Shown here piece by piece: positions 8,213 to 63,542 of a DNA stretch of 64,000 bases. Numbering within the stretch: position 1 is the stretch's first letter; each line of letters begins with the position of its first letter. The notes beneath the pieces were generated by a model. That model worked only from the letters and a program-made list of their open reading frames with translations, did not search any database and was not told the origin of the DNA. Source of the DNA: Isoetes taiwanensis (Eukaryota; Streptophyta; Lycopodiopsida; Isoetales; Isoetaceae); assembly GCA_021234155.1 (NCBI GenBank), contig JAJEKV010000130.1, positions 468,508 to 532,507 of the forward strand. The letters are read 5' to 3'. The translations under genes were made by a program, and so were the position numbers.

Positions 8213-8874
8213 CCCGCAGGTAGAACGCAAATGGAAGGGAACGCCGCATGCGGCGTTCCGTCCGGCGTTCCATGCGGCTGCACATGCACATTTCCCAACA
8301 CCTTACCAAAATAAAACAGAAGATAAAAGAAAACGCCTAGGGAGGTTGAATCCATTCCAGCTTGCTTCTTCACTTGCTGTAGTATGTACCTACTTTGTGA
8401 ACATGTTATCAAGGCATGTTTACTAGTTCAACATCATCATTTGCATCTAGCTTTGTTACATAAAGGTTGAGCTAGAGAAGGCCACATACAAATTTAGATG
8501 TTATAATGTGATTGGAGAAGGCGGTTGAGCATCTCACCTTTTTCCTAGATTTGTTGTAGCAATATATTTTCATTGGTTTTTGTTAACTCTTCAGACAAGA
8601 TGAAGCATTGATTAGGCTCCAGAGTGTTTGCCCAGCATGCATTTGTAGGATTTTGTTGCACATCGCAGGTTGTGGACCATCCAATAATAAATACCTTTTG
8701 AAAAAAACTTAACTAACTCAACATCTCAAAATTAATTAAGTGTTTTTCAAAATAATATAGCTTTAGAACCTAACAAAACTATAAGTTTATCTGTTGAACA
8801 ACCTATATGTTGCTGCTCATTAGACTTATTAAATGTTCTTAAAATGAATGTGATCTAAACCTCAGCTTTGATCA
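8213..8874. other. Intergenic DNA flanking the retrotransposon
   Basis: No gene seen. It contains the perfect palindrome at 8238-8259 and ends in GATCA (8870-8874), the left copy of the retrotransposon target-site duplication. Confidence 0.6.
8238..8259. repeat. Perfect 22-bp palindrome
   Basis: Two 11-bp arms, GGAACGCCGCA and its exact complement, meet with no spacer. A partial third copy (GGCGTTCCATGCGG) follows at 8263. It is GC-rich in an AT-rich neighbourhood. No function can be assigned. Confidence 0.7.
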
Positions 8875-10502
8875 TGTGACGCTCCCTGAATATATACGAC
8901 CCCCGGCCGTATACATACGGGGACTTTCCCCTCCCATGGCGACCCGATCGCCACGAGCAGGGCCCTCCGTCTATCCCGGGCCATCTATAGAGAGATGCCC
9001 GAGTGAAGGACACGGAGGTGTCATTCGGCCCACGCCTTCAGTGGGACTCCTACGTCGCGGAAGCGTGAATACATGTTAGCACACAGCATAAATCATATAT
9101 AAATAACCACCACGAAGGGTGGCGCATCCATCCAAATACCAACGGCAAAGAATATGCATCTAAACTAAGAAAACACCCCAAACCCCAGGTTCTACCCCGG
9201 TTCAGACTCCTGTGAGGATAGACTGACGGCTCGGCCTCAAGAGATCGGCATTTGTGAGGTATAATCGGCGTTGGCTGGCATAGAACATCGGCTAGGGTTG
9301 TCCACTCCATCCGCCCCTCCTGTGCACACTTTGCAGATGGGTCGATTCACGCTATGGCTTCGCTATAGCCTTCCGGAGACGCAGGCTCGAGGTATCACCC
9401 TGCGGAGCCTACTCCAGGGTTCATGACGCCCCGGTCCGATGAGGCAGGTCAGGGAAGCGTCCCCTTCGAGGATCATTAAAGGTTGGTGGGTGAGCTAGAG
9501 AATACGCGCGCATCGCGACCCCCGCATTCATACCCGACTTACTCACCTTAAATCTACTCAAAGTGCAAGATGCTCCATACAGATCACACCTCTACACCCA
9601 GGGAGTGTCAGAACCCATACCCGGCCCTCGCGGGCCGGCCATCAGGCCTAGCCCACTGTAGGAGTCTCAGGAGCCTTTTATGTTCGTGCAAGACCCCACC
9701 CCCACTTCACCACTGCGTCCCTTCTTTGGTGCTAAGCCAATCCATAGCATCTATGACCCGGTGGTCCCTTGTACACAGGCCGCAACTAATAGGATAATAC
9801 AGGGCTCTATCTAGGAGCATACTACAATAAATGGGCTCAGAGGTCTCTACCCCCTTATCCCCCCATTTCAGAGTAAAGCTATGCAAAGAATCATCAATCC
9901 ATCCTTTAAGAGCAAAACCAGCATCAGAAATAAAGAGAACTCACCTTTACAATCAAGGGTTAGTTCCTACAAGTAAAGCACAGAGAGAACAGAGAAACAA
10001 ACACAACCAGTGCCCAACAGGGGCGCTACCCTAGAATTCACAGGCTATCCTAGCCACCCACCTGAGTTCCTGCTAGACCCGTTATCGTTTGGTGCTTCCA
10101 TCTTCCTGGTCTTGGTGCTCTGCTTCAGCTACACAGGTAAAAGTACTTGGTATGGTGGCGCTCAGCTTGGCAGGGGTAGGCGCTCAGCTCCTGCTCCTTT
10201 TTGGACGAATTTTGGGAGTCAATTAGGGATAGGGATCAGGTTGACAGCCCATTTTGGAAGTCCCCATGCTGGCCAATCGATTTGGGCCAGGTGGCGCCTT
10301 CCCAAAGCATTAATTAACCTAATTAATCCATTTAACCCTTAATTCCCTCGATTATAGGTTATTATTTTAATCCCTTTTAGGTCAACCCCCTAGGTTACAA
10401 TACCCCATGGCGGCGTACCTTTAATGAGTGACGTGTCGGTATATTTATACGTATACCGTATAAATACATTACATATACCGTAGAAATACGTGGAACGTCA
10501 CA
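8875..10502 (-). repeat. 3' LTR of the chromovirus
   Basis: It begins TGTGACG and ends CGTCACA on the plus strand, a 7-bp terminal inverted repeat with canonical TG...CA. It aligns along its length with 20454-22087. The copies differ by many small indels and by CG to CA/TG changes. A TATAAATAT-like box lies close to the right edge (around 10440), where U3 starts on the minus strand. Confidence 0.93.
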
Positions 10503-10515
10503 TTCTCCCCTCCTT
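10503..10515 (-). other. Polypurine tract
   Basis: On the minus strand the 13 bases immediately upstream of the 3' LTR read AAGGAGGGGAGAA, a pure purine run at the position where plus-strand DNA synthesis is primed. It fixes the element's orientation as minus. Confidence 0.9.
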
Positions 10516-10995
10516 AAAAACAATGCTGTCCTCAGCATTGGGGTTAGTTAATCAGAGACAGTTACTTGAAGAAACTGAAGTAGAAAATACATTTCGGACA
10601 GTAATACATTGAAGTTGAAAATATAACATCGTGTCGGCACCAAGGTGCATTTTACAAACTTATCATAAAAAGAAAAGTTTAAGGACCGAAGTCCGATTTA
10701 AAAACATCATAGACGACGAAAATCACACATGTAAACAAAACGAATCCGAAAAAGTTGGGTCATCAGCAACCCTCTATACATGGGCAGGTCACGAACTGCT
10801 CACTGGCCTGCACATGTCAATATATCAGTATATATCAATAATATAATTAGATTGTGGTTGAAGGGACCACCCCCTATAGTAATTAGAAGAAAATCCTACC
10901 TACAAGGGAACCTATCATGCCTATAGTTTGCTATTCATTGCGGCATAAGGAATGGTCAAGTTCCCATTATAGCCGAGATGAACGCAGCCTACTAA
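10516..10995 (-). other. 3' untranslated part of the chromovirus
   Basis: The 480 bases between the end of the chromodomain frame and the polypurine tract hold no supported coding sequence on the minus strand. It is probably the element's 3' untranslated region. Confidence 0.6.
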
Positions 10996-11361
10996 CTACA
11001 TGCCTTCGAAGCAATTCGTGGTCATGTCAACATCAACAATACACCACGTCCTAGAGAACACAAAGGTGATCTCATCATCGGTAACTATTATTAAATACGA
11101 TGCATCTACCCCTCTACTGCATGATTCGCGGCGAATCAAGCCTTCAAGCTTACCGCCGGGAGCGAGGTTGATAGCATCGTTGATGGTGCGGCCCTGAGAT
11201 TCCCGCATGAAGTCCGGATAGTGCTTGTCAAGGTCTATCTTCATCACCCAGGTAGCATCCTCAACTGGTAAGTGCTTCCACTTAACCAAGTATTGCAACA
11301 TTTGAGTCCTTACGGTGCATTTTATAAGCTCGATCAAGGAGAGCCCGGGCACTATCTCCAA
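10996..11361 (-). pseudogene. Chromodomain at the end of pol
   Basis: The open frame contains the chromodomain core around YLVKWKHLPVEDATW, with the aromatic residues Y, W and W that form the methyl-lysine cage region in this family. In chromoviruses this domain follows integrase and is thought to steer insertion to chromatin with methylated H3. Here it is out of frame with the integrase by a small shift around 11350-11361. The domain stops with no further recognisable module. Its presence matters because the same element also carries a histone H3 domain. Confidence 0.85.
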
Positions 11362-12833
11362 TTTGCTCCTCTGTCATTTCTAGGAGGATTGGGGTATCCA
11401 AAACCTCCTCCTGGATCAGGGGTGTGTTGTTTCAGAAGACTCACGTGAAAGACCTTGTGGATCTTCAAGCGGGGTGGCAAATCAAGCGATATGCTGTTCT
11501 CCAACACGTTCAAGAATCGTGAATGGCCCAGCCCATCCGGTGCCAACTTCTTGCGATTACCAATCTTAAGCTTGGCTTGTTTTACTTTGATCTTAAGCCA
11601 AACCGATTCGCCCACCTGGAAGACTCGTGGGGTTCTGTGTTTATCTGCTACACTCTTTTGACGACTGCGTGCAGCTAATAAGTAACCACGAACTTCTTCA
11701 ACCAAAGCTTGCATTTCCAGAAGGAGTTGTTGAGAAACCTCAACTTTAGAAACAGGGTTATGCCATGTGTCTGGAGTAAGACATTGATATCCATAATTTA
11801 TCATAAAGGGAGACATTCTGAAAGACTCCTGTTTCATACTGTTGTAGGCAAACTCTACCAGATAAATATAGTCAGCCCATTGTGATTGCTTACTCCACAC
11901 ATAACTTCGAAGCATATCTTCGATAATGCGATTGGTACGTTCTGTCTGACCATCCATCTGAGGATGATAGGCCGTACTCATAGCAAGCTTGGTCTGGATG
12001 GTGGCGAAGAAGTCTTTCCAGAATGCACTTACAAATTTGGGATCCCTGTCGGATACAATAACTCTTGGCATTCCGTGCAACCTCAAAATCTCCTTTGCAA
12101 ATAGCAGGGCGGTGTCGAAGGCTGTGTCGGTGGTACGACATGGCAAGAAATGAGCCATTTTCGACAATTTGTCGACCACCACCATCAATGCATCATATCC
12201 ACAGAGAGTACGTGGAAGGCCCACAATGAAATCCATGGTTATCACTCCCCACTTTGCGTTGGGCACATCCAGAGGTTGCAACTCTCCTGGAACTCTTAAT
12301 TGTTCAGCCTTGGTTTGTTGACACACCTGACACTGCTTAATGTATCTAGCAATATCCTTCTTCATCGAAGGCCAGAAATAGCTGGAGCGGATCTTAAAGT
12401 AGGTCTTCATAAACCCTGCATGTCCAGCTATAGGGTTGTTGTGTGTGTCATGGAGGATCAGCTTACGTACTCCCGAAGTCTCAGTTACACACAACTTATC
12501 CTTGTAATATAACAAATTGCCCTCTTTCTTATATGAACGGAAAGCTTCGCGTTCTTTATCTGTGCGTGCTTCCTTACTCAAACTAACCCAAGCGTCACAG
12601 AACTCAGGATCTGTGACCAAAGTCTGCTCTATTTGTTTCCCAAACTCACTAGTGAGGGTGGAAATTGCGTTACAATGGGTTCGGGTTACCAAAGGATGGC
12701 GTGATAACGCATCCGCGACCACATTGTGCTTCCCCGGCTTATACATAATCTCAAAATCATATTCTTCGAGAAACTCCATCCACCTTCTCTGACGGAGATT
12801 GAGATTAGGCTGGGTTGTTAGATAACGGAGACT
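11352..12833 (-). pseudogene. Integrase region of pol
   Basis: The frame begins directly after an in-frame stop at 12834-12836 and runs 11352-12779 from its first Met. It shows the RNase H/integrase linker (YKPGKHNVVADALSRH), the HHCC zinc-binding module ending CQVCQQTK, and the catalytic core with D in TMDFIVGLP, D in VSDRDPKFVSAFW and E in DGQTERTNR. The C-terminal part is the usual basic, GPY-type region, ending in a run of prolines before a stop. All three catalytic residues are retained. The stop separates it from RNase H and a frameshift separates it from the chromodomain. Confidence 0.93.
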
Positions 12834-13319
12834 CTAATGATCCGTATCCAGCTGGAATTTCCTACCAAGAAGGTAGTGTCTCCAAATGCGCAGAGCACGG
12901 ACAACTGCTAACAACTCCTGATCATGGGTAGGGTATCGATGTTCCGTGTCGTTCATCTTCTTTGAATCATATGCAATAACTCTCCCCTCCTGCATTAGGA
13001 CTCCACCGGTAGCAATCTTACTAGCATCCGTTGCCACTAGTTTATCCTTTTCAGGATCGGGCAAAGTGAAGACTGGTGCAGACGTTAAAGCATCCTTAAG
13101 CTTCTGAAAGCCTACCTGGACTTTTGCTTTCCAATGTTCCATCCAATCCTTCACCTTCTCATGCTTTGTGAGATCAGTAAGAGGTGCGGCAATCGTTGCA
13201 AAGTCCTTAACAAATTTCTGATAATATCCCGCTAGTCCCAAGAAACTCCGAACTTCCAAAACATTACCCGGAATAGGCCAATCCCTTACTGCTTCTATCT
13301 TTCTTTGGATCCGTAGCAA
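12834..13319 (-). pseudogene. RT thumb and RNase H region of pol
   Basis: The start matches the RT connection of Ty3 elements ([18 protein letters not shown]). It then runs into RNase H with [24 protein letters not shown] and ending LDTDH. The TDH motif is followed at once by a TAG stop, where related elements continue with Lys-Ser-Leu. The frame therefore continues in principle into the integrase entry after a single stop codon. A shift near 13320 disconnects it from the RT fingers and palm. Confidence 0.92.
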
Positions 13320-13325
13320 TTCCCT

Positions 13326-13960
13326 CTATTTGAAATGATATGCCCCAAATAATCCACCTTTGGGAGTCGCAAACTTGCACTTAGAGAACTTGGCAAAAGA
13401 GCGATGATGCCTTGGCTTTTGTAGGGCCAACCTAAGATGTTGCTCATGCTCTTTCAAAGTTTTACTATAGATGAGAATGTCTTCGAAGAAAATAACAACA
13501 AAATCATCCAAGTATTGGCGGAAGACGTCATTCATCAACCGCATGAAAGTTGCAGGAGCATTAGTTAGTCCAAAAGGCATAACGGTAAACTCATAATGTC
13601 CATATCTAGTGCGAAAAACAGATTTATGGATGTCCTCCTCTTTTATCCTTATCTGATGGTATCCGGAGCGTAAATCAATCTTTGAGAAATATTTGGCCCC
13701 TTGCAACTGGTCCATTAGATCATCTGCCCTAGGCAAAGCGTACCGATTCTTGATGGTATGCTTATTGAGCTGCCTATAATCAATACACATCCTCAAGGAG
13801 CCATCCTTTTCTTAACAAAAGGATAGGGCTAAAAAAGCCCTAAAAACAAGGCCGAATGAAACCTAGGTTTAGTAACTTCTGAGGTTGCTTCTTAAGCTCT
13901 GCCAACTCTGGAGGACTCATACGGTACGGGGCCTTACTAGTAGGCTTAGTACCTGGTTCT
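13326..13960 (-). pseudogene. Reverse transcriptase core of pol
   Basis: The open part (13326-13796) carries MCIDYRQLN, the catalytic LRSGYHQI segment, [12 protein letters not shown] and the metal-binding motif. In Ty3 elements that motif normally reads IDD; here it is FED, the first Asp codon being Glu (GAA, 13492-13494). Upstream, 13797-13960 belongs to the same domain but is shifted and has stops. The Glu substitution would be expected to impair polymerase activity, consistent with a dead copy. Confidence 0.92.
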
Positions 13961-14199
13961 AGAGCTATCTCACATTCTACCCCTCTAAAAGGAGGAAGCT
14001 TCTAGATCTCATCTGAAAAAAGAGCTTAAATTTCGGAGAAGGTTGGCAATCCTTCCCAGGCAAGGTGTCAATTACATACGCTAGCATCGACTCAATAGGG
14101 GCAAGTCTAATGACGCAAAGGAGCTTTTCCTTGCGTAACTTTTTTCTAAGCTGCGTGATAGACATAGATCGCATAATAGGGTTGAATGGATCACCTTTA

Positions 14200-14600
14200 A
14201 TAGTCACGCGTGCTCCATTGGCGGCGTTGAAGGTAACCTCCGGCTTTCATGGTCTATATTGGCCTTGCGGATGCCAAAAATTCCATACCCACAATAAGAT
14301 CATATTTGCCAATGTCCATTAACTTCGGCACCCAAGGCAACCGTGCACCGCAACCGCAAGATCTTAAGGTTAATCGCTACCGCCATGAGTGTGTAATCGA
14401 TCTTACCATCGGCTAACGTGGATGGCTTTGGCTGGGATCTCAACGTTTCAATTTTGCAATACCCAGGCCATTCTAGGAGAAGCAAAATTTATGTGTACTA
14501 CCCAGTATCCATCAAAATTATGAAAGGCTTACCGTCTACTTGGCCTATGGTAGAAATAATGTAAGGCTGACTTTCAGCATTGCTTGGGTTTCTATAGTCA
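14200..14600 (-). pseudogene. Retroviral-type aspartic protease region
   Basis: The frame 14498-14725 ends with the protease active-site triad FIILMDTG (DTG at 14501-14509), followed directly by a TAG stop. The rest of the protease lies in other frames down to about 14200. It joins gag upstream and RT downstream, as expected in a Ty3 polyprotein. Confidence 0.75.
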
Positions 14601-15845
14601 GCAAGGATATGAGACGACCGTGAATATACTGCGGAGCCGCCCCTCCCCGGCGGTAGTGTTGACTCAAGATCGTCCCAATCGAGGTCAGCCATAGCCACCA
14701 AGGCGGTTTGCGGACATAAGGGCAATTTTGCATAAAAGTGCCGGTCGCATACACCTGTAGCATGCCTTATCTCTACGGAGCTGTTCTGCGGCCTCGTTAG
14801 GAATAATAGGTAAGAGGTTCGAACTTCCTTACCGACATTGTTACGCTCACGGGCTTTGAAGGTGACTTTCTTTTCCTAGCGGCCATAAGAGTTTCGTTGA
14901 GAGGGCCCCGGACTTGGCGGCGGGGTTTTGTAAGGTGTTATTAGGCGTGGCTCGAAAGTAAGAAGGGGCCGGATATCGGTTCCTTTTTGGTGTGTCCTCT
15001 TCGAGGCTTAATGCCTTAGCTTTAGCTTCGCGAATCGATTTTGGGTCTATGGCCTTAACCATTCGTTTAATGGATGGGGCCAACCCTTCAATGTAGCCCT
15101 CCACCGCCCTCTTTTCATATTCATCCTCGTATGCATCCTCAAAGCGCATGAATTCATCGGTGTAGGCTGGCCCGACATCCCCTTCTCGCTCTAACCTCGT
15201 AGAAGGTGCGGATTTGTTGGCATTTGTGTACGAGGCACATAATGCGACTTAAAAAGCCTTGGCAAACTTTTTGAACTTGCACTTGCTCCCCGCCGGGTGC
15301 TTGGCTCGCATAGCCCTTCCACCAAATACTGGGCGACTCATGTAAGGTTTGTGGAGGCAACCTTCCCCTGTATCCTTTTCTGTCATTCCATAGGATTTCC
15401 CAAACTCCTTCATCTCGTTGAGCCAGGACTCTGCATTCAGCCCACCTCTAGATTTGCCATCAAATTGGGCGATTTCCTATTTTTCCATATATTTGGTTAT
15501 GGCTGTATCAACCGTTTTACGGTACTCCTTATTCGTGATGTGCATGGCCTTAGGATGACCGCAGGCGATTGAAGGACTCGAGAAGTTCGACCGAGGAGGA
15601 GGTGGCACTTGTCCCTAGAGGAGCCTCGATGGCGTTTGGAACGGTGCCTCCTTAATCTGAGTGCAAAGGCTGGACTTCAGTCTGTAAGGCTGCTTGTGGT
15701 GGGGACTTGGCGGTAACGGAGGTAACTCCGGTCCATCCTCCTGGACATGCTGCGGTGGGTTGGTATTCAGCACATAAGTCTACAACTCAACTACTTGCCG
15801 CTTCATCAACATAAGTTCACCTTTCGGGGTTAACCCTCTTGGCAT
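14601..15845 (-). pseudogene. gag capsid-nucleocapsid region
   Basis: A start codon at 15843-15845 fits the beginning of gag but meets a stop at 15780. Pieces in several frames show the Ty3 gag signature: an FDGKSRGGLNAESWL block around 15450, and 14847-15149 with MRFEDAYEDEYEKRAVEGYIEGL typical of the capsid C-terminal half. Repeated single-base shifts break it into at least five frames. No intact CCHC knuckle is visible. Confidence 0.75.
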
Positions 15846-16132
15846 TGAGGGTATCGCCGGTGGCGTTAGCGTGCGTGCAGATCTATATTGAGCATAACAA
15901 GATATAAGCAGAATTTCAACAACATCAAGTCTCACAACAAGATCATTTTGGGTAGCACTGAAGTAAGAGTGAATAAGAGAAGACAAGAGAAAAGATTTTG
16001 ATTATAAGTCAAAACAACTGTTACATTGAAGAACTTCACACTGAAGATAGTTATCAACTTCAAGTGGGTTTTTATACATTGGTTATTTCTTTAGTCACAC
16101 TGGACATAGCATAACAACAAAGGGGTCCGGAC
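15846..16132 (-). promoter_or_regulatory. Possible internal promoter/leader upstream of gag
   Basis: Between the stop of ORF-C and gag, the minus strand carries GTATAAAAACCC (TATAAAAA around 16069-16076). An AT-rich, CT-rich leader of about 220 bases follows, then the gag start. The arrangement resembles a plant core promoter plus leader. It could let gag-pol be transcribed independently of the upstream cargo. This is inferred from motif and position only. Confidence 0.35.
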
Positions 16133-16797
16133 CTAGGGGTTCGCGAAAGGGTACAAGATAGAGTAGCGAACGCTCTCGCGTACAGCTCTCACTAACTTGT
16201 AGCGAGCCCAGGCCTGGACAATTACAGGTTGGTAGTCCCAGGTGGGGCTAACAATAAGGAGATTGAAAAGCCTCCTTAATGCGTAGAAAATTTGCCAGAG
16301 GTGGTCGTTGGCATCTTCAAAAGCTTCGTGCCTGGACATATCCCAATAGTCCCATGTATGGCGAAGGGTCTGCTTCAGGTCGTCAAAGGCCCGTTCCCTG
16401 AGGATGTTAACTACCTCCATCCCCTTGTCTGGATCATAAGGTTCTTCTGGCTCTTCGGGTTCCTCCATCTCATAGTCACCATCTCGCTCCGGGTACTCTC
16501 CATATCTTTGGCCGTAATCTTGGTCGGGAGGTCCGGGATCATCCCTTCGTATCAGGTCGGTAATTCGTTCTTCATACTCCTCAAGGGTCTCGTCTGCAAG
16601 ACGACAGGAATAAATATATATGCATTGAACAAATTCCCTAATTAAACATTGAAGAGAAAAGACAATTCAATGGTTTTTCGATAGTACCAGAAAATATAAG
16701 GAAAATCCCTGAATATATATATATATGAAAAGAGTACATAGATCATGTGATGGCCCCTTAAAGGTAATGGCAATCAAAATTACTTACAAATAGACAT
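16133..16797 (-). CDS. ORF-C: cargo ORF, apparently spliced, unknown function
   Basis: The main exon (16133-16593) encodes an acidic segment rich in Glu and Pro (EEPEEPEEPYDPDKG), then a helical, Trp/Arg-rich region, ending LYPFANP before a stop. It is preceded by a strong acceptor (CCTGTCGTCTTGCAG, ending 16594). Upstream, a donor GTAAGT starts at 16787, ten bases after an ATG at 16795-16797. Removing the 194-bp interval 16594-16787 keeps the frame open from that ATG for about 157 codons. I recognise no domain. It lies on the element's coding strand between ORF-B and gag. A functional intron would have been lost on retrotransposition of a spliced RNA, so unspliced genomic RNA must have been copied. 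Confidence 0.5.
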
Positions 16798-16819
16798 AAT
16801 TGTCTGCTTAAAACTAGAA

Positions 16820-18229
16820 TTAAGAGGTCGACCCTTCAATATCTTGGGCTTGGGTGTCAAACTCGGGCTCTGGTCGATGCTGTAGGAGTAGCACACTAGG
16901 ATTAACTGATGAGGCAACTGATGAAGCTATCTCTGGAGGGACATTGGTAGCCAATGGCGCTGCAACCAGCAGACTTATGTTCATCCAAGAACCAATCTCA
17001 TGGTCAAACACTGCAATGGCTAGATCACGATTCACCAGGATGACCTGCTCAAGGTTAGGAGCTAACTTCTTATGGCCGGCTGTAGTTGAAAGTGCTCGGA
17101 GTGCCCATACAGCCACCTCTGCTTCAGGTACAATTGCTTTAGCAAAGAAAAGAACCTGTCTGCTGGTGAAAGCCGACAAAAAGAACCGAGTAATGTGGCA
17201 TTTCAGCCCCTGAACCATCGAATGGGTTGAAGAGGCCAACTCAAACTCCAAATTCTGGGGCAGCTCCTCCTCCATGGCAAAATCCTTCTCCTCCTGAGCA
17301 TACTGGCTCTCATCACATAAATCCTCCATAGATGGGTCGTCTTCGATCTTGACGACGACATCGTTGATGTTGGGCACATGTGGCCCCGTAGCCTGAAAAA
17401 CCAATTCAGGAATTGAAGATGGAGTACCCTGAATCATTAAATGGCATAAGGATAGCAGTGTGCTGATAGGCTCAACATCAAGAGGCTGATAGTTGAGCAG
17501 TTGGTGTATCTCCGGCACATAGACGGGACGAGAATAATCAATGAAGTCATCTGACCACGGCAATACTCGGCCGAGCTCATAGAGAAGGTGAGCCGTCTTT
17601 TGCTTGCCCTTATTGGCGATATCTTGTCGCCCATTGAATGTCGCTCAAAGAGCAAATAATCTTGATCCCCAACCTTGATGGTAGAAAGCGAACTTAAGCC
17701 GACAAAGAGCTTGGCCTTTACTACGGGGTAGAAGCTTCTCTTTGGCTAATTCCTTCCATCTTACAAAGTCGGCATAACTGATCGCTCATCCTCCTCGGGA
17801 TACGGAGGAAGTGGGGACTTGGCTTGCTCTAAAGCCCGGTGTCGCACACCGATCAACATACCTATCCATAATGGCAAGGGCAAACTGGGCCTCAAAGTAC
17901 AGCCCATTAGAACCGCAGTCAATGATGGGGGCGTGCTTAGCACGTCTGAGAATGCCCTTAAGAATATCGTAACTGTGGCGATCATCCCCAAACATGTGCT
18001 CTAAGATGTCCCTATGAAGATAGGGTTGAGGCGGCTCCTCGAAAAACTCTGCTTGGGGCAGGATTTCCTCATCATAGAACTCTAGGAAGGTCTCATAATC
18101 AGGGTGTGCGCGCATGTTGTCGATGAGGTCGACTGTACACTGCAACATGGGATCCAAAAGAGGGTAGGGAACCTGAGGATCCCATTGCTCGCCTCCCATG
18201 TACCATGCTAGGCGCCCAGCGTAATCCAT
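16820..18229 (-). pseudogene. ORF-B: unrecognised cargo ORF, frameshifted
   Basis: Two long open parts, 17786-18229 (147 codons from an ATG) and 16820-17563 (247 codons), are joined by shorter open pieces in other frames. They look like one original ORF of roughly 470 codons broken by about three single-base shifts. The N-terminal part is acidic and aromatic-rich (MDYAGRLAWYMGGEQW). The middle contains an acidic patch (VVVKIEDDPSMEDL). The C-terminal part is hydrophobic and Ala/Ser-rich but has no clear membrane helix or signal peptide. No family is recognised. It sits between the H3-bearing ORF-A and ORF-C on the element's sense strand. An envelope-like gene is not supported. Confidence 0.5.
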
Positions 18230-18509
18230 TACTGCAGACGGAAGACGGGAGGAGGAAGAAAACGAAAGGAGTAAGAAATAATGAAACCCTAAAATGAATG
18301 TCAGTTTTAAAGTTTCTGGGCACGGCGTTCGAGGCGCCAGCTCATTATTGCTGTTATATTTTATATTTATTTATTTAATTATTTCTCTCTTTTTTTTTCT
18401 AATATGCGTACATAAAGAAAGAAAATCATACGCCGACTAATAAGTCAAAACAAGATTTGTATTAATATATAACAAAATTACATAGATACAAAAATGTTGT
18501 TTTACATAA

Positions 18510-18975
18510 TCATGGCCGTTCCCCACGGATCCGGCGTGCTAGCTGAAGGTCCTTTGTCATGATCGTCACTCGCTTGGCATGAATTGCACATAGGTTTGCA
18601 TCGCCAAAGAGGGCCACCAAATAGGCCTCGGCTACCTCCTGGAGTGCTAAAATGGCATGGGTCTAAAACCGGAGATCTGTTTTAAATTCCTGAGCAATCT
18701 CTTGGACTAGCCGCTGGAAAGGAAGTTTCCGTAGCAAAAACTCGGTGGATTTCTGGTACTTCCTTATTTCCCTAAGTGCCACGGTGCCAGGCTTGTAACG
18801 ATGCCTCCTCTTAGGCTGGGGTGGAGCTCCGGGAATAGTTTTCCCAGCTGTCCTCGGATGCCGGGCCTTTCGGATGATCTCATCTCGCCGGTTGTCCCCT
18901 GCAGTCTTAGCGATACTACCCCGAGCCTTGAGCTACTCCTTATATTGAGCACCCGATTTACGGGGTGTCTTCTTC
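18510..18975 (-). other. Histone H3.3-like tail and histone fold inside ORF-A
   Basis: From the codon equivalent to His39 (18801-18803) to the stop there are exactly 97 codons, the canonical H3 length with no indel. Landmarks include [44 protein letters not shown] and LARRIRGER. Tyr41, His87 and Leu90 equivalents are all present, the residues that separate plant H3.3 from H3.1. By recall of plant H3.3 I count about 15 differences in 97. The CENH3-type longer loop 1 is absent. The tail is not canonical but contains KKTPRKSGAQ, which resembles the QTARKSTGG context of Lys9. One TAG replaces the Gln85 codon and another lies in the tail. No intron interrupts the domain. Confidence 0.93.
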
Positions 18976-19797
18976 AGTTTTCGGCGAGGGACACGAACTT
19001 CTGGAGGTGGCTGGTCTTGCCTGTGCCGTTCTTCCTCTTCTTTCCTCAAGCTGCTCCTTACCGCCTCTGTTACCTCGTTCACCCTACGCTCTGCTTCATC
19101 CCTGCATTCTCCTCGGGGCTTGCTCTTGTTCTACTGCTGTTGATGGATAGTGTCCTCCGGCTTGGCGACCTCCTCGTCATTGCGTTGCCCTCGTGATTCG
19201 CCCGGGGAGGGCGGCTTGCTCCTCGACCCCGCTTTTCCGGCTATTCTAATATCCGTTCTTCTTGTAAGCTCCGGGGAAGTAGCGTGGAGGGTTGGCTTTG
19301 CATGTCCGCTCAACGGCCCGTAGAACTGGTCCGTGAAGAATGAGGGTGTTCGGCTTCGGATAATACGGTTAGTCTCCTCTTCATATGAAAAAGTTGGGAG
19401 GGTGTAAGATCCCCATCAAAGAGGCACATCCAAAAGTTTCCCATGTAGCGGTACCACGAAGGCGGGTCATCCAGATGCTAGCCATTTGAGGGTCCGCCTC
19501 TTGGGCCATTTGCGGTACATTTTGGGCGCTGCGTTTGTAGGGCCTCTTCTTCAGCTTGTTCATCCCCACCTGGCGGAAAGAACCGTGCGTACTTGTGGAC
19601 ACCATCTTCCTGTTCAACCACAATGCAGGTCTCCCGGATGGCGTTGAGCTTAATTACAAAACGCTCATTATAGCGGAAAGAGCGGGTATGGTATTCGACT
19701 CCTTCGTGAGAAACGTTTAACAAAATATTCGGTATCTCCTCAGTTTTTGCCTCCGCTTACGGGCGATGGGTTTTGTGCATTAGCGGTGATTCGCCAT
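18510..19797 (-). pseudogene. ORF-A: cargo ORF ending in a histone H3 domain
   Basis: From a likely ATG at 19795-19797 the reading runs, with about three small frameshifts before 19381, to a stop at 18510-18512. From about 19380 down the frame is constant and interrupted only by three TAG codons (19131-19133, 18933-18935, 18663-18665). Parts in order: an N-terminal region (19400-19760) with beta-rich text that weakly suggests a BAH-type fold; a basic, Pro/Ser-rich linker; a charged helical segment (VRSSLRKEEEERHRQ); an H3-like tail; and the H3 histone fold. It is the first ORF after the 5' LTR leader, so an LTR-driven RNA would present it first. Without its stops and shifts it would be roughly 430 codons. 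Confidence 0.75.
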
Positions 19798-20438
19798 TAA
19801 AAACTCTATGGGAGTTTGAGAATGACGGGGCTTGCGCTTGTATACTTGCTTATTTGCCTCCATCCTTAAAAAAGTATTTGGTGGGCGCGGGCGGTGCTTC
19901 GGGGGAGAAAGGTATGGGATGAGGTTTGGCTATGGCGAAGAGAAGCTCCCAGTTCCGGCGGCTATGGCGGCTAGGCGGAGCTCAAGAGGGCACTAGGCGT
20001 TGTAAAAAAAATGAAGAAAAAGTTACCTTTTGACTACATTTGAAATTTTAACCCTAAAAATTTTTTTGGAGAAAAAAGTGGCGGAACAAGTTTTTCGAGG
20101 TGGCGGGCAGTCCCTACCTCGGCGTTCTTTGGCCCGATGGCGTCCGTACCCCCGTACCGCCACTTAGGGTTAGGGTTTTTTTTTTTTAAGGTGGCGGGCA
20201 CACCCTACCTCGATGTCGCCACCGTCGCCAGCAACACCCGGGTACCCCCTGCCCGCCACTTAGGGTTAGGGTTTCGCACCGGGTAGGCATACCAATTTTA
20301 TGCTTAGACCACGTTAAATCAACCATGACAACATCTACTTACACCACCAAAATCTCATACCACTCCAAAGATCCTCACTCACTAGCTAACGATCTAACGA
20401 GTTAGTATGTGGCCAGTGCAATAGTTTGGCTTCCCGAA
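19798..20438 (-). other. Leader of the chromovirus with two GC-rich hairpin units
   Basis: This is the region between PBS and ORF-A. It carries two tandem units, 20100-20180 and 20191-20275, each starting GTGGCGGGCA and ending in a CCGCCACTTAGGGTTAGGG block. In the second unit GTGGCGGGCA (20191-20200) can pair with TGCCCGCCAC (20250-20259). The same module occurs in the LTRs of the unrelated copia element (58985-59053 and 63607-63675). Its T-rich run (20177-20187 on the plus strand) separates the two units. Confidence 0.7.
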
Positions 20439-20453
20439 CCATGCTCGATACCA
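20439..20453 (-). other. Primer binding site (tRNA-iMet type)
   Basis: Directly inside the right-hand LTR the minus strand reads TGGTATCGAGCATGG. This matches the plant initiator-Met tRNA primer site TGGTATCAGAGC... apart from a missing base. It fixes the 5' end of the element on the right and supports the LTR boundary at 20454. Confidence 0.88.
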
Positions 20454-22087
20454 GCGTGGCTCCTCCACGAATATATCGACCCCGCCTTATACATGCAGGG
20501 GACTTTCCCTCCCATGGCGACCCGATCGCCCACGGCGAGGAGCCCTCAGGTCTATCGGGCCATCTATAGAGATGCGAGTGAAGGTTTCTGAGGTGTCATT
20601 CGCCCACGCCAGCCGGTGGGACTCCTACGTCGGAAGCGTGAATACATGTTAGCACCACGGCATAAATCATATATAAATAACCACCACGAAGGGTGAAGTG
20701 ATCCATCAAATACCAACGGCAAAGAATATGCATCTAAACTAAGAAAACACCCCAAACCCCGGGTTCTACCCGGTTCGGACTCCCGTGAGGATAGACGACG
20801 GCCCGGCCTCAAGAGATCGGCGAGTAGAGGTATAACACGCGTTATCGGCATAGAACATCGGCTAGGGTTCTCCACTCCATCCGCCCCTCCCATTGCACAC
20901 TTTGCGGATGGGTCGATTCACGCTATGGCTTCGCTATAGCCTTGGGAGAGCGGGCTCGAGGTATCACCGCGGAGCCTACTCCAGGTTCATGACGCCCGAT
21001 CCGGATGAGGAGGTCAGGGAAGCGTCTCCTTCGGGGATCACAAAGTGGTTGGGTGGGTGAGCTAGAGAATATGTGCGCATCAGCGGCCCGCATTCATACC
21101 CGACTTACTCACCCTAAATCTACTCAAAGTGCAAGATGCTCCATACGGATCACACCTCTACACCCTGGGAGTGTCGGACCCATACCCGGCCCTCACGTGG
21201 CCAGGCTATCAAGCCCTAGTCCCAGCGTAGGAGTCTGAGGAGCCTTTTATGTTCGTGCAAGACCCCACCCCCACTTCACCACTGCGTCCCTTCTTTGGTG
21301 CTAAGCCAATCCATAGCATCTATGACCCGGTGGTCCCTTGTACCTGGCGCGCAACTAATAGGATATCTGGGGGCTCTATCTAGGAGCATACTACAATAAA
21401 TGGGCTCAGAGGTCTCTACCCCTTATCCCCCCATTTCGAGTAAAGCTATGCAAAGAATCATCAATCCATCCTTTAAGAGCAAAACCGGATTCGAAATAAA
21501 GAGAACTCACCTTTACAATCAAAGGGTTAGTTCCTACAAGTAAAACAATGAGAGAGAAAGAGAAACAAACACAACCCGGTGCCCAGGGCGCTACCTAGAA
21601 TTCACGGGGCTATCCTAGCCACCCACGAGTTCCCGCTAGACCCAAGTATCGTTTGGTGCTTCCATCTTCACGGTCTTGGTGCTGCGCTTGACTACACGGG
21701 TAAAAAGTACATGGTATGGGCGCCACCTTCGGGGTAGGCGGGGGTAAATTTCCGCCTGCTCCTTTTGGACGAATTTTGGGAGTCAATTAGGGATAGGGAT
21801 CAGGTTGATACTTAATTTGGAAGTCCCCATGTGGCCAATCGATTTGGGCGGTGGCGCCTTCCCAAAGCATTAATTAACCTAATTAATCCATTTAACCCTT
21901 AATTCCCTAGATTATAGGTTATTATCTTTAATGATTAAATTAGCAGCTAATTTAATCCCTTTTAGGTCAACCCTCTAGGTTACAATACCCCATGGCGGCG
22001 TACCTTTAATGGGTGACGTGTCGGTATATTTATACGTATATCGTATAAATACGTTACGTATACCGTAGAAATACGTGGAACGTCACA
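20454..22087 (-). repeat. 5' LTR of the chromovirus
   Basis: Direct repeat of 8875-10502, ending CGTCACA at 22087 and followed by GATCC. A TATAAATATA box (22025-22034, minus strand) lies close to the U3 start. It is set among near-palindromic GTATA/TATAC stretches. It carries an extra ~25-bp AT-rich piece around 21925 relative to the other LTR. Its inner edge (20454-20470) has drifted from the TGTGACG seen at 8875. Confidence 0.9.
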
Positions 22088-26499: not shown

Positions 26500-26885
26500 C
26501 TGATGGGTTGGGCTTGTTATAGGCTTTGCTAGCTTCAAGATAATTGTTTGAGGTCAGTGATATTCCATGATTGTCTAGATTTTTATTGATCAGGATGATT
26601 TGGAGGCAGAGGATCAGACTTAAAAAGAAGGTGGCAGCTTCTAGGATAGTGTGGCAGTCTATTCCAACTCGTCGTTGCTTTTAAAAGAAAAAATTAGTAC
26701 ATATGGGAGTTCTTATGTATCTAGGAGATGCAATTAAATTACTGGATTGAAAATCTTGAAATTCAAGTGGCAGTAGATCTTGGATTGCAGTATTTGGAGA
26801 AGGACTATGTGGATTGCTAGTTCTTGAACTTTTTGCTTGTTTCGCAATATGATGACCTAGAGGCTTCTCCGTATCGGATTTCCTT

Positions 26886-27695
26886 GTGAGTGTTGCTAAT
26901 GGTTTTGGTACTCACTTGGCTCATTCTATAGTTGATGGTGCTAAGATTTGTGTCTCTCTGCCTTGTGGCCAAGCTCTGCCTAGTTCCGTTATCATCAATA
27001 GTGGCCCTATGTTCCTCAAATTTGATTTGCAGCTACTGAATGGTCCTCAACTTGCTGATTTGTTTCCCCAACTTGAACTCTTTGCAAATTTCCGTGCTAA
27101 GCGGGATCGCCCTGCCAATGTTCCTATTTCCTCTTCGCCTCTCACTTCTGCTTCCTCCAAAGCTGCACCTCCTCAGTCCACGTCCTTTAAAGATGCAATT
27201 GGTCAGGATGTTGATATGCCCTCTTCCTCTAATATGCAGTCTGCACCAGTTCTTAGTGCTGATGCTAGAGCTAAGTTTCAAGAGCAGCAGGAATGGCGTG
27301 ATAGAGTTACTGATGGCTGGACAAAAGTTAATTTGAAGAAAGCTGCCCGTAATAAATTTGCTCAGTCTGCCTCTCAGGCGGCACATCCTAGTGGAGATGG
27401 ACATGGTAGTGCACAACAGCATGCCATCATTCCTTTATCAGAGGTTGAGGTACTCTGTGGAGGGCCAGAGCAGCGAGGAGGCTCTCCCTTGCCACAATCT
27501 GCACATAACATGGAGAGGGTGGAGCAGAGCGGAGGCTCCCCTCTGCCAATTGGTCCAGGACACAATGGAAGGGTGGAACAGAGAGGAGGCTCCCCCTTGC
27601 CACTTACTCGCACACGATGGGCAGACCTCTCAAATGCAGTTAATCTTCCTGGGGTGACTGAGATGGATGTGGAGCATCCTCAACTGCCTACATGA
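26886..27695 (+). CDS. LINE ORF1 (gag-like), 5' part probably lost
   Basis: A 269-codon open frame rich in Ser, Pro, Gln and Gly, of the kind that forms the C-terminal half of plant LINE ORF1. Residues around 195-245 contain three copies of an imperfect repeat with RGGSPLP or SGGSPLP preceded by VEQ. No CCHC knuckle is seen. The upstream sequence has a stop just before the frame, so the real start may be lost. Its stop codon overlaps the ORF2 start (ATGA at 27692-27695), a layout that fits reinitiation. Confidence 0.65.
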   Translation: MSVANGFGTHLAHSIVDGAKICVSLPCGQALPSSVIINSGPMFLKFDLQLLNGPQLADLFPQLELFANFRAKRDRPANVPISSSPLTSASSKAAPPQSTSFKDAIGQDVDMPSSSNMQSAPVLSADARAKFQEQQEWRDRVTDGWTKVNLKKAARNKFAQSASQAAHPSGDGHGSAQQHAIIPLSEVEVLCGGPEQRGGSPLPQSAHNMERVEQSGGSPLPIGPGHNGRVEQRGGSPLPLTRTRWADLSNAVNLPGVTEMDVEHPQLPT

Positions 27696-30600
27696 ATATT
27701 CTTTCTTGGAATGTTAGGGGAGTGGCTTCTTCTCCAAGCAAAAGGAGTAGGTTGTCCCTCTATCTGTCTAAGTTCTCCATGGATCTATGTTGTTTTCAGG
27801 AGCATGTGCCAGAAAGGCGATGTTCAAAAGCTGGCTAACATTTTGGGGCATGATTATAATGTGCTTGTGGCGGCTGCTGATTCTGCTAAAGCCGGTGTTC
27901 TTACTGCATGGAAGCCCTCTTTGAATGTCACTTTCACTCAAGTGGACAGGTTTGGTCGTTGGATAATTGTTAAATGGAAAGAACGGGGGCAAGAATGCGG
28001 TTTAGTGAATGTTTATGCTCATAATTATCCACGTCAAAGGGGAGCTTTGTGGGCCTCTCTTCGTAGCAAAGTTATCAGGCTAGGCAATAATGTGGCATGG
28101 TTGCTCATAGGGGATTTCAATATGGTTGAAATTGAGACAGACAGGTGTGGCAGGGGATCACAGGTGGTTCAAAGATTTGAGCGGGAGCAATGGAAACGTC
28201 TGCTGCATGATCGTGGCCTTGTGGAGATCGAGGGTGATCAATCCTTCACATGGTGCAATGGATGGACAGGCAACGGTAGAGCTTACGCCCGACAGGATCG
28301 TGGCTATTATAATGCAATAGCTGCTGATTTTCTTTAGTTGCAGAGAACTAATTTATTGGATAGTGCAGTCTCAGATCATAATTCGCAATGGTTCTCTACT
28401 GGACGACCTTTGTGGCGAAGAGCCACAAAAACTTACTTCAAGCTCAATACTAAGCATTTGAAGGATAGTGAATTCATTGCAAGTTGTAGGAATGCGTGGT
28501 CTCATGAATTCTCTCGTAGTGGTGGCATGGCTGGTGTTGTTGCTGCCCTCAAGGCTGTAAAATCCTTTGCAAAGCAGTGGGGTCATGCACAGGTGGTTCA
28601 GACTAGAGGCCAATTAACCACGTTGTATCAGGAGTTACAGAGATGTTGCGCTCTTGCCCCTTCTTCTGGTATTAGAGAGAAAGCAATCATGACGGAGATT
28701 AAAGCCATTAAGACGGCTCATGTGAATCAAGCCAGGATAAAGGCAGAACTGGAATGGTTTAGATCTGGCGATAGATGCTCTCACTTCTTTTTTCGAGCTG
28801 CTAGAAGAAGGCGTATGATGGCCTCTATTAACTCCCTTATCTTGCCTGATGGGTCAGAGTGTTCGGATCCAGTTCAATTGAAGCAGTATCTCCACGACCA
28901 CTTTTCTTCATTTTTTTCTAGACATCAGTGGTCCACCCCATTGTGTCAGCTGAGAAGCGTGCACACCTAGAATCAGACATCACTATTAATGACTTACATT
29001 CAGCTGCTTCTCTTTTAAAAAAAGACAAGTGCCCTGGCCTAGATGGTTTTCCAGTGGAATTTTTCCAGGAATATTGGGATTGGTTGGGTTGCGATCTTTA
29101 CAGTGCTTTCTATGAGTTCCGTAGGCTCAGAAGGATAAGACCCTCAATACTGACTGCATTTCTCTTATTCCCAAGTGTAAAGAGCCGAAGACAATATCTT
29201 ATTGGCGTCCTATCACATTATTGTCTTCCGTATATAAAATATTCGCGAAGGCCCTTGCAGAAAAAGTGTGTGATGTCTTAGCTGTATCAATCTCTCCTAT
29301 TCAATCTGGATTTTTGCCAAGGAGGAGCATTTTAGACAATGTTGCTGCTGCTTATGAGGGTATGTATTGGGCCAGATTGAAAGGTCTGCGTGTAGTCTAT
29401 CTTAAATTAGATTTTGCCAAGGCATATGACAGTGTGGATTGGGAATTTTTGAAAAAAAGCCTCTTAACATTGGGCTTTGGTCAGCAGTTCACCAGTGATG
29501 TTATGAAGCTCCATATCTCGGCACAGTCTACAGTGTTGTTTCAGGGGGAACCCTCCATTGTTTTTTCGATTGGGCGGGGTGTTCGCCAAGGATGCCCATT
29601 AGCTCCACTTTTGTTCACAGTGGTAGCTGAGGTCCTCTCACAGCTATTTGCTAAGGCTATGCAGGATGGAATAGTCCAGGGGTTGAATATGGAGGATGGT
29701 TCACAAGAAATTTGTAATCAGTATGCTGATGACACGTTTCTCTTTCTTGTGGCTGATGTGGACAATCTTCAGAATGCAAAGCTTCTTCTTGATACTTTCT
29801 CTTTCGCATCTGGAGTTCTTGTTGGTTGGCCAAAGTGTTATGCATTATGGACGCTTGATGGGGTTGTGCCTCCTTGTGTTGCTGATTTTCCTTGGGAGGT
29901 GCTTCCTCATGGAAAGGCTACTAAACTTCTTGATATTCCTGTGGGCATTCATATATCTACTTCTGATGCTAGGGATATTATCATAGAAGGGTTGCGAAAA
30001 CATTTGTTTTGGTGGAATACTGCTAAGCTCTCTCTGCCAGCGCGAATAACTGTTGCAAAGCATGTTTTAAGTAATTCCCACATCTATATGGCCTCTGCCC
30101 TTTTGGCTTCTCAGTCAAAATTTCAGGTGATTGTTACCATTGTTCGTAATTTTATTTGGGGTGGGAATCAGGAGCATGCTATGGTTACGGTTGCATGGTC
30201 CAAATGCACTAGGCCAAAATTTGCAGGTGGTTTAGGTATGACAGACTTCCATCTGCAGAGTAAGATTCTGATGTCTAAGTTCATTTGAAGGATCCTTAAG
30301 GATATGGTTGACTCACCTGGAGTGAGGTTGATGAAGCAGTCACTCGCACATTGTGTTCCTTTTGGGAAAGCTTCATTAAAACCTGTTCTTCCTTGGAGTC
30401 TCTTTTATCAGCTATGCCCTTTTCCTAATGCCTCCCCTTTTTTGAATGGCCTGCTGGAGTCTTGGGAGATAGTACGGATCTTATTTTGTATTGATCTTGT
30501 TGCATGTCAGCAGTTGACTGCCCCTTGTTGGTGGATACCTGTGGAAAATAATCTTCCACTTTGTGCCTCAGTTCATCCATTAACTCAACGACGCTGGCGG

Positions 30601-31171
30601 TTAGCAAGAATCTTAACAGTTGTCAGCATGGTATGATTCTGGCCAGTTAGCGACTTGGCAAATTTTTCAAACAAAATTTTTATTGTCTCGATGGGACAAA
30701 CCTATTTGGCAAAAGGTTGCTAGTACTCTGCCATTGGTTGCTTCAGAGGCTATTGAAGGGTACATGTGGATTTTCCACCAGAGTGTTCACGAGCATAGGC
30801 TTGTGAACTCTATGTATAGGCTGCTTGTCAATGGTGATATCCTTCCGCCATCCACTAAGTGGTCCCTTCAGCTTTCACCTCCTAGTTGGAGACGTATGTG
30901 GACTTGGGCTTGGGATAAACTACTCCATCCTAAGGTGGCAGTGCTTTGGTGGCAGATTCTTCACAGATGCCCTCGGGTGAATGTGCTTGTCCACAGGTTT
31001 GATCCTCGAGTGTCAGCACTCTGCCCACTGTGCAAGCAAAGGGACGAGACTATTGAGCATTGTTTCTTTTTATGTGATCACCTCCAGCCTGTTTGGTCTT
31101 GGCTGCTTTCTCTTTTTCATGTGACATTGACAAGTCAGCAAGTGCTTCTGGCTATTTATCCGGATACTTGA
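27692..31171 (+). pseudogene. LINE ORF2: endonuclease, reverse transcriptase, zf-RVT
   Basis: It starts with the endonuclease signature MNILSWNVRGV at 27692 and has GDFNMVE near 28112 and the SDHN motif near 28370. An in-frame TAG lies at 28335-28337 and shifts occur near 27820, 28930, 29150 and 30290. RT motifs are clear: CPGLDGFPVEFF, LDFAKAYDSVDW, RQGCPLAPLLF and the catalytic NQYADDTFLF (around 29720). The 30620-31171 frame ends with the zinc-binding RT-associated domain (CPLCKQRDETIEHCFFLC). The layout is that of plant L1 ORF2; length is near normal but expression as one protein is impossible in this copy. Confidence 0.9.
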
Positions 31172-31519
31172 AATAAGGTGCGGAGCCAAGCATTTCATTT
31201 GGCATCAGGATGGTTGTTGTGGTCCATTTGAAAGCGTAGAAGATTGTGTATCTTTCAGGGTTTGGATATTCCTCCTACAGTAGTCCTCCAGGATGCATAA
31301 GCTAGAATCGCTAAGGCCTACCATTGTTCTTCGCTTGCTCCTGCCAAGAGACAGTTGATATTTGAGTCCTATTTGAGTGTGTTGTCTTATGCATAGGCTG
31401 GTGGTTCTATTCAGTGGATCATGACTATCCTCTGAGATTTTATTCCCGCCTTTGCAGTTGTATCTGGCTTTTGGCTTGGTGTTTTAATAAAGTTTGTCGA
31501 TCTTCAAAAAAAAAAAAAA

Positions 31520-32059
31520 CAATGCACGATATTTTGGATCATTTTTAGGGCTGGGATTTATTGAAATTTATGGCGGGCTAGGAGATCTCTACCTCTACAA
31601 TGGGAATGTTTTGCTTCAGGCATACCGTTTGGATAATTATCTGTTTGTATGTCCTCCTTCTGTCGTCTCCAGGTTTTGGTCCAAATTATTCCACTAGTTT
31701 GCAAAGGGTACTGGAATCATTATGTGTGCTTAATCCAAATCTGACCATTAAGGGTGACAGAAACTGCTACAGTCTTGCGAGCAAATGGATTGGTTTTGGA
31801 AATTTATGGAGAAGATCCTATAGTACTTTGTTCAACAAAAGAAGGTTGAATTTTCCCTGCAGTAAGCTGACCCGAAGAAGATGTTGAGCGACTCTATGAT
31901 GAGTACAGAACTTATGTCATTTTCTCTATTTTCTAATAGCAGATTCTTATTTTTTCCCTGAATCTTCAGGGTTTTTTGTGCTGTAGTTTTATATCATATG
32001 AATACAAAACTGTCATTTCTTCAAAAATAAAATCTTTGCATAAACACTTCAGTAAGTGA
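31520..32059. other. Unassigned intergenic DNA
   Basis: Begins directly after the LINE poly(A). No supported gene on either strand. Confidence 0.6.
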
Positions 32060-44400: not shown

Positions 44401-44700
44401 ATTCCCTTTTTTTTTCAAAAAAAGAGCTAAAATGAGGTAAAATTTTTATTTTGATCATAAAATTGCATTTTGACCCCCCCCCAAAATCACTCAATTTTTA
44501 TGCAAAGAGAAAATTGACTATGTCAAAGTGACACTTTTCCTCCTACAGTTAGAATTTACGAAATGTGTTTCTAGAGAAAACCACTAATTTAAAGTGTCGC
44601 CCCTACACAACATTTTGTTAGCTTGGATTGTATTCGGAAAAGGTACATTTAGGTTATAGTGAGCCATTTTTTTAATGATATAATATTTCAAAGTACCAAA
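41468..44700. other. Unassigned DNA downstream of PEX11A
   Basis: No supported gene. An 18-bp phrase, GGCTTACTGATACATGCA, is repeated in tandem around 42308-42345. Two moderately long open frames, 42787-43353 minus and 43333-43599 plus, show no domain or splice context that I trust. Confidence 0.5.
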
Positions 44701-45140
44701 ATTGTATTCCGGAATATATTTTTGCCATTCGAGAATAACAAAAGTGTATTCAGGAATACACTTTTGCTTTTCTTAGAAGTCAAAGTGTATTCCGAATACA
44801 CTTTTGGTTTTGCTTTCGAAATCTAAAAGGTATTAGGAATACATTTTTCTTTGTATAAGTTTTGAGACTCAACAGTTGAGTGGAATATATTTCCTATTGC
44901 GGATAGCGGTGGGGAAAACCAAGCGACATCAACTAGGTTTTTTAGCATCTTCAATAAATTTCAATGACCTTGCGATTTTATTTTGTTTATTTTATGGGGA
45001 TCTGAGGATTATGGTTCTAAATAATAAAAGGGATTGCTTTTGTTTCTTCTTGGAAGGCTAGGGATACTAGATCATGGTAGCAAAGGAAAGTGGAAAAGTT
45101 ATTCTCGGAATACACTTTGTATTCCGAATACATTTTTAGT
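44701..45140. repeat. Cluster of short perfect palindromes, set 1
   Basis: Several copies of a palindrome built on GTGTATTC-N(1-2)-GAATACAC lie close together. The clearest are 44739-44766 (13-bp arms around AG) and 44782-44104 equivalent positions 44782-44804 (11-bp arms around one base). Shorter or imperfect copies lie at 44705-44716, 44826-44850 and 45100-45137. Arms extend into A/T runs (AAAAG...CTTTT). The same core recurs at 46897-47050. Confidence 0.8.
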
Positions 45141-46884: not shown

Positions 46885-47050
46885 TCTTAGAAAGCAAAGG
46901 TGTATTCCAGAATACACATTTGTTTTCTCAGGAAAGCAAAGGTGTATTCTGGAATACACCTTTGCTTTTTCAAAATCCAAAGTGTATTCTGGAATACACA
47001 TGTGTATTTTAGAAAAACAAAAGTGTATTCCAGAATACACTTTTGTTTTT
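46885..47050. repeat. Cluster of short perfect palindromes, set 2
   Basis: Four palindromes with the core GTGTATTC-NN-GAATACAC lie within 160 bases. They are 46897-46921, 46936-46965 (14-bp arms around TG), about 46980-47002, and 47013-47050 (18-bp arms around CA, flanks A-rich and T-rich). Spacing is about 40 bases. They belong to the same family as the set at 44.7 kb. Confidence 0.85.
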
Positions 47051-47685
47051 GCATTTTTTGTTTTGTGTGTCCTAGTGTGTCAAAACATGTCAAACATGCT
47101 TGAGGGAACAACTAAACGTGGAGACTTGGGACATATACCCAGTTGCAACATCTGACAAGCATATTGTTCAATACGCACCAAACTTTGAGGGTGCCAAATT
47201 GATGTACTGAAAAATTTCAAAGAAACAGTTATTATTTTTTCTTCTCTATTTTGATGTTTTTGATATCTCATTTTCAGAGATTATATATTCACATCTACAT
47301 TTTTGCCATTTTTAAGAGTGCTTCTTTGCAAAACATAGACTGTGACTTAATGAGGAGCCAAAATGAAGGGAAAAAAAAATTGAACCTTTTGAAATTCTCA
47401 AGTTTTTTAAAAAAAGGCCAATTTTAAGAGCATGGTGTTTTTTTAAAGGGAATCTTTGAAACGAGAGTTTTGCAACACTCCCATTTGATTTGCAACCTTG
47501 TTACTGGTTATCTGAGACTATTATATGGGATCTTATTGTCATTAGGATCACATGGTTTCTATTGCACAGGCATCAAAACACGAGGTTATAAAAAGCAGGT
47601 TCAACTCCTGCATGTTCAATATTGATGCAATATGTAGAAGATGATTAAGAAGGCTTCTCTAAATAGAAGGTGTGGAAAAGAGAGA
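47051..47685. other. Unassigned intergenic DNA
   Basis: No supported gene or repeat. Confidence 0.55.
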
Positions 47686-59360: not shown

Positions 59361-59361
59361 G

Positions 59362-59374
59362 TGGTATCAGAGCC
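59362..59374 (+). other. Primer binding site (tRNA-iMet type)
   Basis: TGGTATCAGAGCC one base after the 5' LTR, complementary to the 3' end of plant initiator-Met tRNA. The gag ATG follows immediately at 59375. Confidence 0.93.
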
Positions 59375-63475: not shown

Positions 63476-63532
63476 ACTGAGTTAAAATTTAGTAGACTGA
63501 GACATATGATCAGTTGCAAGGAAAAATAACAT

Positions 63533-63542
63533 GAAGGGAAAG
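63533..63542 (+). other. Polypurine tract of the copia element
   Basis: GAAGGGAAAG directly before the 3' LTR. Confidence 0.85.

Follow-up and report, generated by a model that had tools for sequence, protein, structure and literature searches.

A histone H3-ending open reading frame in a chromovirus family of the Isoetes taiwanensis genome

The genome of Isoetes taiwanensis contains a family of Ty3/Gypsy chromoviruses in which an open reading frame (ORF) ending in a histone H3 core is carried upstream of gag, and comparison of its sequences indicates, with a probability of about 0.97, that this H3 is a selected gene of the retrotransposon family. The copies found, the selection acting on them and their element context argue for a standing gene and not for a one-off capture. 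No prior description of a retrotransposon H3 was found in a narrow literature search covering the main texts of papers available without subscription, and the titles and abstract openings of chromovirus papers held no claim of an element-borne H3.

The window (the whole 64-kb stretch of contig JAJEKV010000130.1 that was analysed) contains a Ty3/Gypsy chromovirus on its minus strand, spanning approximately 8875-22087 (Table 1). Its two LTRs are 87.8% identical, with 188 mismatches in 1587 aligned columns (5' against 3', K 0.129), and the flanks, GATCC on the right and GATCA on the left (8870-8874), were read by eye as a 5-bp target-site duplication in which one base differs. The primer-binding site (PBS), TGGTATCGAGCATGG, is of the tRNA-Met type. 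About 5 kb separates it from gag, and this interval is occupied by three extra sense ORFs, namely the H3 ORF, ORF2 and ORF3. The LTR pair, the PBS and the gag-PR-RT-RH-IN order expected of Ty3/Gypsy elements were found in the window and its relatives taken together, with Pfam matches to gag-PR-RT-RH in copy L012 and to RH-IN in L017 (rve just below the cut-off), and with gag/capsid matches above the cut-off in L012 and L028. The spacers between the ORFs of the chromovirus look AT-rich by eye. An 86-bp stretch of its leader (20188-20273) is 78% identical to the terminal repeats (58982-59067 and 63604-63689) of an unrelated element at 58917-63982, judged Ty1/copia-like by eye from its ORFs and young because its 444-bp repeats are 99.8% identical. 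Elsewhere in the window, plus-strand ORFs at 26856-31887 resemble, by eye, a LINE endonuclease and RT, a tandem duplication of approximately 0.7 kb (88.7% identical) lies at 55948-57339, and short inverted and direct repeats are clustered at 44686-47055.

Table 1. Features of the window chromovirus, in window coordinates.
Feature	Position	Strand	Basis or remark
5' LTR	20463..22087	-	start TGTGACG at 22087; self-comparison of window
Primer-binding site TGGTATCGAGCATGG	20439..20453	-	motif match
Decayed H3 ORF (H3 core preceded by an N-terminal domain and a charged linker)	18510..19863	-	H3 match and unbroken relatives
Histone H3 core, 97 codons, H3 positions 38-134	18516..18806	-	protein and Pfam match
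ORF2 remnant	16820..18229	-	no Pfam match; shares a diverged block with the H3 ORF
ORF3	16133..16603	-	conserved among copies; no Pfam match above cut-off
gag remnant	14847..15450	-	weak capsid match, E 0.03, below cut-off
Reverse transcriptase fragment	13326..13811	-	Pfam RVT_1, 106.6 bits
Integrase	11352..12833	-	H2C2 73.3 bits; SH3 33.7; rve 30.6, just below cut-off
Chromodomain	11203..11310	-	31.7 bits; judged group II by eye
Polypurine tract	10503..10517	-	read by eye
3' LTR	8882..10502	-	self-comparison of window

A plant H3.3 query gave one significant match in the window, on the minus strand at 18905-18516 (91 of 130 residues identical, 170 bits, E 1e-52). The Pfam Histone family matched the upstream half of the window H3 with 61 bits, and the top-scoring sequence among solved structures was an H3.3 (7ux9). 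The core aligned without indels across its 97 codons, bearing out the canonical length given in the preliminary description, and the placement proposed there, on the sense strand of a chromovirus upstream of gag, was likewise recovered, the H3 lying inside the LTR pair and downstream of the PBS. The H3 frame at 19415-18513 is interrupted by three inner stops, all TAG (19133-19131, 18935-18933 and 18665-18663), and the ORF's own stop is a TGA at 18512-18510. When the window ORF, which probably starts near 19863, was compared with its nearest intact relative (L027), the matches were spread over three frames and thus imply at least two frame changes, confirming the three TAG stops and upstream frameshifts previously noted. 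Y41, H87 and L90, which had been taken as H3.3 markers, are all found in the window core, but only H87 is diagnostic in this host, since the host H3.1-type genes that were read carry both Y41 and L90.

The host genome assembly (1.658 Gb, 1110 contigs) was searched for further copies, and the totals of these searches are first-look counts, not copy numbers. The Pfam histone profile returned 8705 candidates; among the best 150, which were scored, 15 begin at profile position 2, like canonical H3, and the other 135, which resemble the element type, begin at positions 4-25, with open frames of up to 494 aa. Twenty of these 135 were fetched and, having been picked for long open frames, are biased towards intactness. 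All 20 carry an unbroken ORF that ends in H3 and matches Pfam Histone, with lengths from the first methionine of 400-464 aa in 19 copies and 334 aa in L022, so that the intact relatives anticipated from the broken window copy do exist. ORF2, ORF3, gag and RT were found downstream on the same strand in 19, 15, 15 and 13 of the 20, respectively, with at least one of them in every copy, and a PBS motif was found upstream in 17 (L028, at another distance); in most copies, no other long sense ORF stands between the PBS and the H3 ORF. The partner LTR was present in all six copies whose 3' LTR place was fetched, and the K values of these pairs (0.035-0.104) presumably correspond to ages of approximately 1.4-4 million years at 1.3e-8, a rate that may not be that of this host. 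L011 has an additional, diverged piece of H3 (50% over 42 aa) in sense orientation at approximately 75-200, upstream of its LTR region.

Searching with the whole ORF gave 12,071 first-look candidates, of which 95 were scored; 14 of these were split over two rows and 81 aligned in a single row, and 40 of the 81 single-row matches were stop-free by hand count, some of them covering part of the ORF. Additionally, an ORF3 search (2958 candidates, 150 scored) was sampled at about every seventh row (n = 20), taking 1.1 kb at the expected place of H3. H3, intact or broken, was found in 15 of these 20 stretches, and the remaining five showed neither a sense H3 nor an element backbone in approximately 4 kb; at one of the five, L048, an H3 element runs in the opposite direction. 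To lineages A and B this sample added lineage C, in which L067+L046 has an open frame of 421 aa and an N-terminal domain approximately 35% identical to that of lineage B, and lineage D, with the single member L039. The preliminary description had named two outcomes that would speak against it, confinement of the H3 to a single copy and a host gene outside the LTR pair; H3 instead recurs in every long-frame copy and in most ORF3-chosen stretches, and it lies between the PBS and ORF3 in independent copies. An RT search of the host genome gave 25,290 first-look candidates, and open frames of up to 1553 aa among the 150 scored suggest that the wider element family has been recently active.

The H3 core of lineage A (5 long-frame copies, 10 pairs) showed dS and dN values of 0.57 and 0.007 and a median dN/dS of 0.009, and that of lineage B (15 long-frame copies, 105 pairs) values of 0.95, 0.030 and 0.032, respectively, the pairs behind these medians not being independent. 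The N-terminal part gave medians of 0.16 (A) and 0.13 (B). Differences at codon positions 1, 2 and 3 of the core were 4.95, 0.41 and 21.65% in lineage A and 7.01, 1.32 and 33.45% in lineage B, and shifted reading frames gave pN/pS above 1. Seven within-lineage pairs from the ORF3-chosen sample and the window copy had dN/dS of 0.024-0.111 (Fisher p ≤ 1.9e-7 each), which are upper values because post-insertion decay is included. The dN/dS comparison proposed at the outset therefore returned purifying selection on the H3 core, at approximately 0.01-0.11 within lineages. In ten copies, the median dN/dS was 0.025 for RT and 0.037 for H3 (those of 45 pairs with defined dS), and by this measure the constraint on H3 is about equal to that on the element's own polymerase.

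The interval around the H3 core has a history of its own. L010 (lineage A) and L012 (lineage B) are 89.6% identical over the part that runs from the LTR to shortly beyond the PBS, and 85.5% identical over the ORF3-to-pol part, and between the PBS and ORF3 the H3 core alone could be aligned (73%). The L010/L021 comparison resembles this one, and L027 and L028 were alignable from ORF3 to pol only. The LTRs do not split the lineages, with mean best-match identities of 80.4% (A-A), 82.4% (B-B) and 81.2% (A-B). Similarly, RT pS over 16 A-B pairs was 0.43, compared with 0.41 within A and 0.48 within B, and H3 pS over the same 16 pairs was 0.87. The H3 ORF and ORF2 thus belong to a single block that differs more between elements than its flanks do and that has probably been exchanged between element backbones. 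Such exchange hints that the H3-ORF and ORF2 proteins may work together.

In an alignment of 26 stop-free rows, from which the stop-containing window, L038 and L042 copies were left out, 59 of the 97 core columns were invariant, and these include most of the DNA-contact and H3-H3 interface residues. H39, R40, T45, R69, R72, F84, C110, H113 and A114 were kept in all 26 rows, as were R116-T118, M120, D123 and R129; the decayed copies carry R72Q (window) and T118N (L042). Positions 60, 64, 102, 104 and 105 are variable among the element H3s, and lineage A has R42K. The canonical ARTKQTARKS-type tail is absent from the 20 long-frame ORFs and from L046 and L055, an N-terminal domain and a charged linker standing in its place. 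A lysine that resembles K27 by its K[ST]xP context persists in lineages A, B and C, and lineage C has ARKS in L046 and SRKS in L055, so some silencing-type sites are retained. The N-terminal domain gave no Pfam match passing the cut-off, a search of the protein collection at E 0.001 yielded no relative, and its structural model had no clear structural neighbour or known fold.

A tree of 28 element rows, four host H3s and four reference H3s, with no CENH3 included, placed the element H3s on one side of a branch against the host and reference H3s (support 100/99). V89I, T107A and I124L are common to the representatives of all four lineages, with exceptions among members (I124 in L019-L021, V89 in L028), and the element H3 core is most simply read as a single derivation from an H3 gene. 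E77, present in most element rows and in the host H3 genes read, is missing from the reference H3s used, pointing to the lineage of this host as the source of the capture. Sixteen continuous host matches with a canonical tail were found by a search that could miss intron-split genes. One of them, L074, is of the H3.3 type (T31, H87) and intronless, so the intron-free state of the element H3 is by itself no proof of capture from mRNA. The label 'H3.3-like' holds in part, as lineages A and D carry H87, but the representatives of B and C carry F87; H3 position 31 of the element ORFs is not alignable to canonical H3. Identity with CENH3, which has a longer loop 1 and a divergent core, was rejected on the indel-free 97 codons and on the 83-87 of 97 core residues that the lineage representatives share with host H3 genes.

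Plant Ty3/Gypsy chromoviruses (Galadriel/Tekay/CRM/Reina) have the same LTRs, tRNA-Met-type PBS, gag-PR-RT-RH-IN order and chromodomain; unlike them, the present family has its PBS and gag approximately 5 kb apart, and the first of the three additional sense ORFs in this interval ends in H3. The chromodomain lies at the integrase C-terminus (32.9 bits in L017) and keeps, by eye against HP1, the tryptophan alone of the three aromatic cage residues in the window, L017 and L024. The methyl-H3-reading group I type, for which all three would be expected by criteria in the available text of PMC3350952, is therefore not supported, and neither is the earlier statement that this chromodomain reads methylated H3; it fits group II, whose binding partner in plants is described as unknown in the accessible parts of PMC3350952 and PMC6317226. 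The eORF-5'F of plant LTR elements are likewise sense ORFs of at least 250 codons upstream of the polyprotein; in the main text of PMC6317226 such eORFs are heterogeneous, 21.4% are similar to a known domain and no histone is named among them, its one 'histone' referring to chromodomains. Relative to plant H3.3 and H3.1, the element H3 has the same core but no canonical tail, the three replacements seen in the four representatives and an N-terminal fusion. Bracovirus H4 acts on host chromatin and is, by analogy, the nearest functional counterpart. Bracovirus H4 (PMC9145170) and the medusavirus and melbournevirus histones (PMC11500106, PMC12297534) are, in the available texts, likewise encoded in viral genomes, but these are DNA viruses, whereas here an LTR retrotransposon carries H3 alone, with a large N-terminal fusion and at high copy; the term 'retrotranspos' was not found in the available text of PMC9145170.

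How the protein might act is a more tentative matter. The reading preferred, at somewhat below even odds, is that of a private, anti-silencing H3 variant working through nucleosomes. The element H3 core would pair with host H4 (and H3), be handled by host histone chaperones and be built into nucleosomes, most likely on element cDNA or fresh insertions. Such nucleosomes would escape the normal silencing marks, because the usual tail (K4, K9 context) is replaced, and the fused N-terminal domain might recruit element proteins, perhaps ORF2, which is suggested because it stays linked to the H3 ORF. Slightly more reserve attaches to the wider proposal of a histone serving as a replication gene, in which private element-H3/host-H4 nucleosomes, escape from tail-based silencing, H3-ORF2 cassette exchange and an arms race with the host would be combined.

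Unlikely, but the strongest of the rivals, is a packaging role, in which the H3 protein, with imported host H4 or alone, would condense cDNA in the particle or pre-integration complex while its N-terminal domain binds capsid. The conserved DNA-contact residues and the position of the ORF as the leading long sense frame behind the PBS in most copies agree with this, and histones organise the genomes of some giant DNA viruses according to the available text of PMC12297534; nevertheless, the strict maintenance of the contact surfaces for H3 and H4 implies that the protein pairs with H4, no capsid-binding motif was recognised and the N-terminal model has no clear known fold. Marginally less probable is a decoy role, in which the protein would not be lastingly incorporated but would sequester histone chaperones or H4 and thereby impair replication-coupled deposition and silencing. 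Histone chaperones hold the C-terminal half of the H3 core, which is the best conserved part here, and steps that depend on the tail could be obstructed by the fused N-terminal part, but a decoy would not need the DNA-contact residues, which are mostly kept. That the H3 is a captured passenger hitch-hiking without function is very improbable: the window copy is broken, and many plant LTR-element eORFs are divergent, with a function that is in doubt (PMC6317226, available text), yet the dN/dS values of 0.009-0.11, the third-position pattern, the frames that stay open in copies whose LTR pairs have K values of 0.035-0.104 and the retention in four lineages contradict it. A host H3 gene or pseudogene beside the element, or a transposon inserted into the chromovirus, has nothing beyond the single window copy in its favour and next to no likelihood, given the same PBS-ORF3 place in independent copies and the separate set of 16 canonical-tail host matches.

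Transposon silencing acts largely through modification of the H3 tail. If the preferred nucleosomal reading is true, a fused H3 that lacks the canonical tail and is under strong purifying selection would be a direct counter-move against silencing at the level of the nucleosome, and the family would provide the first retroelement-encoded histone variant. As a natural variant, the element H3 can be set beside H3.1, H3.3 and CENH3, and the idea that a retroelement may define chromatin of its own can be tested on it.
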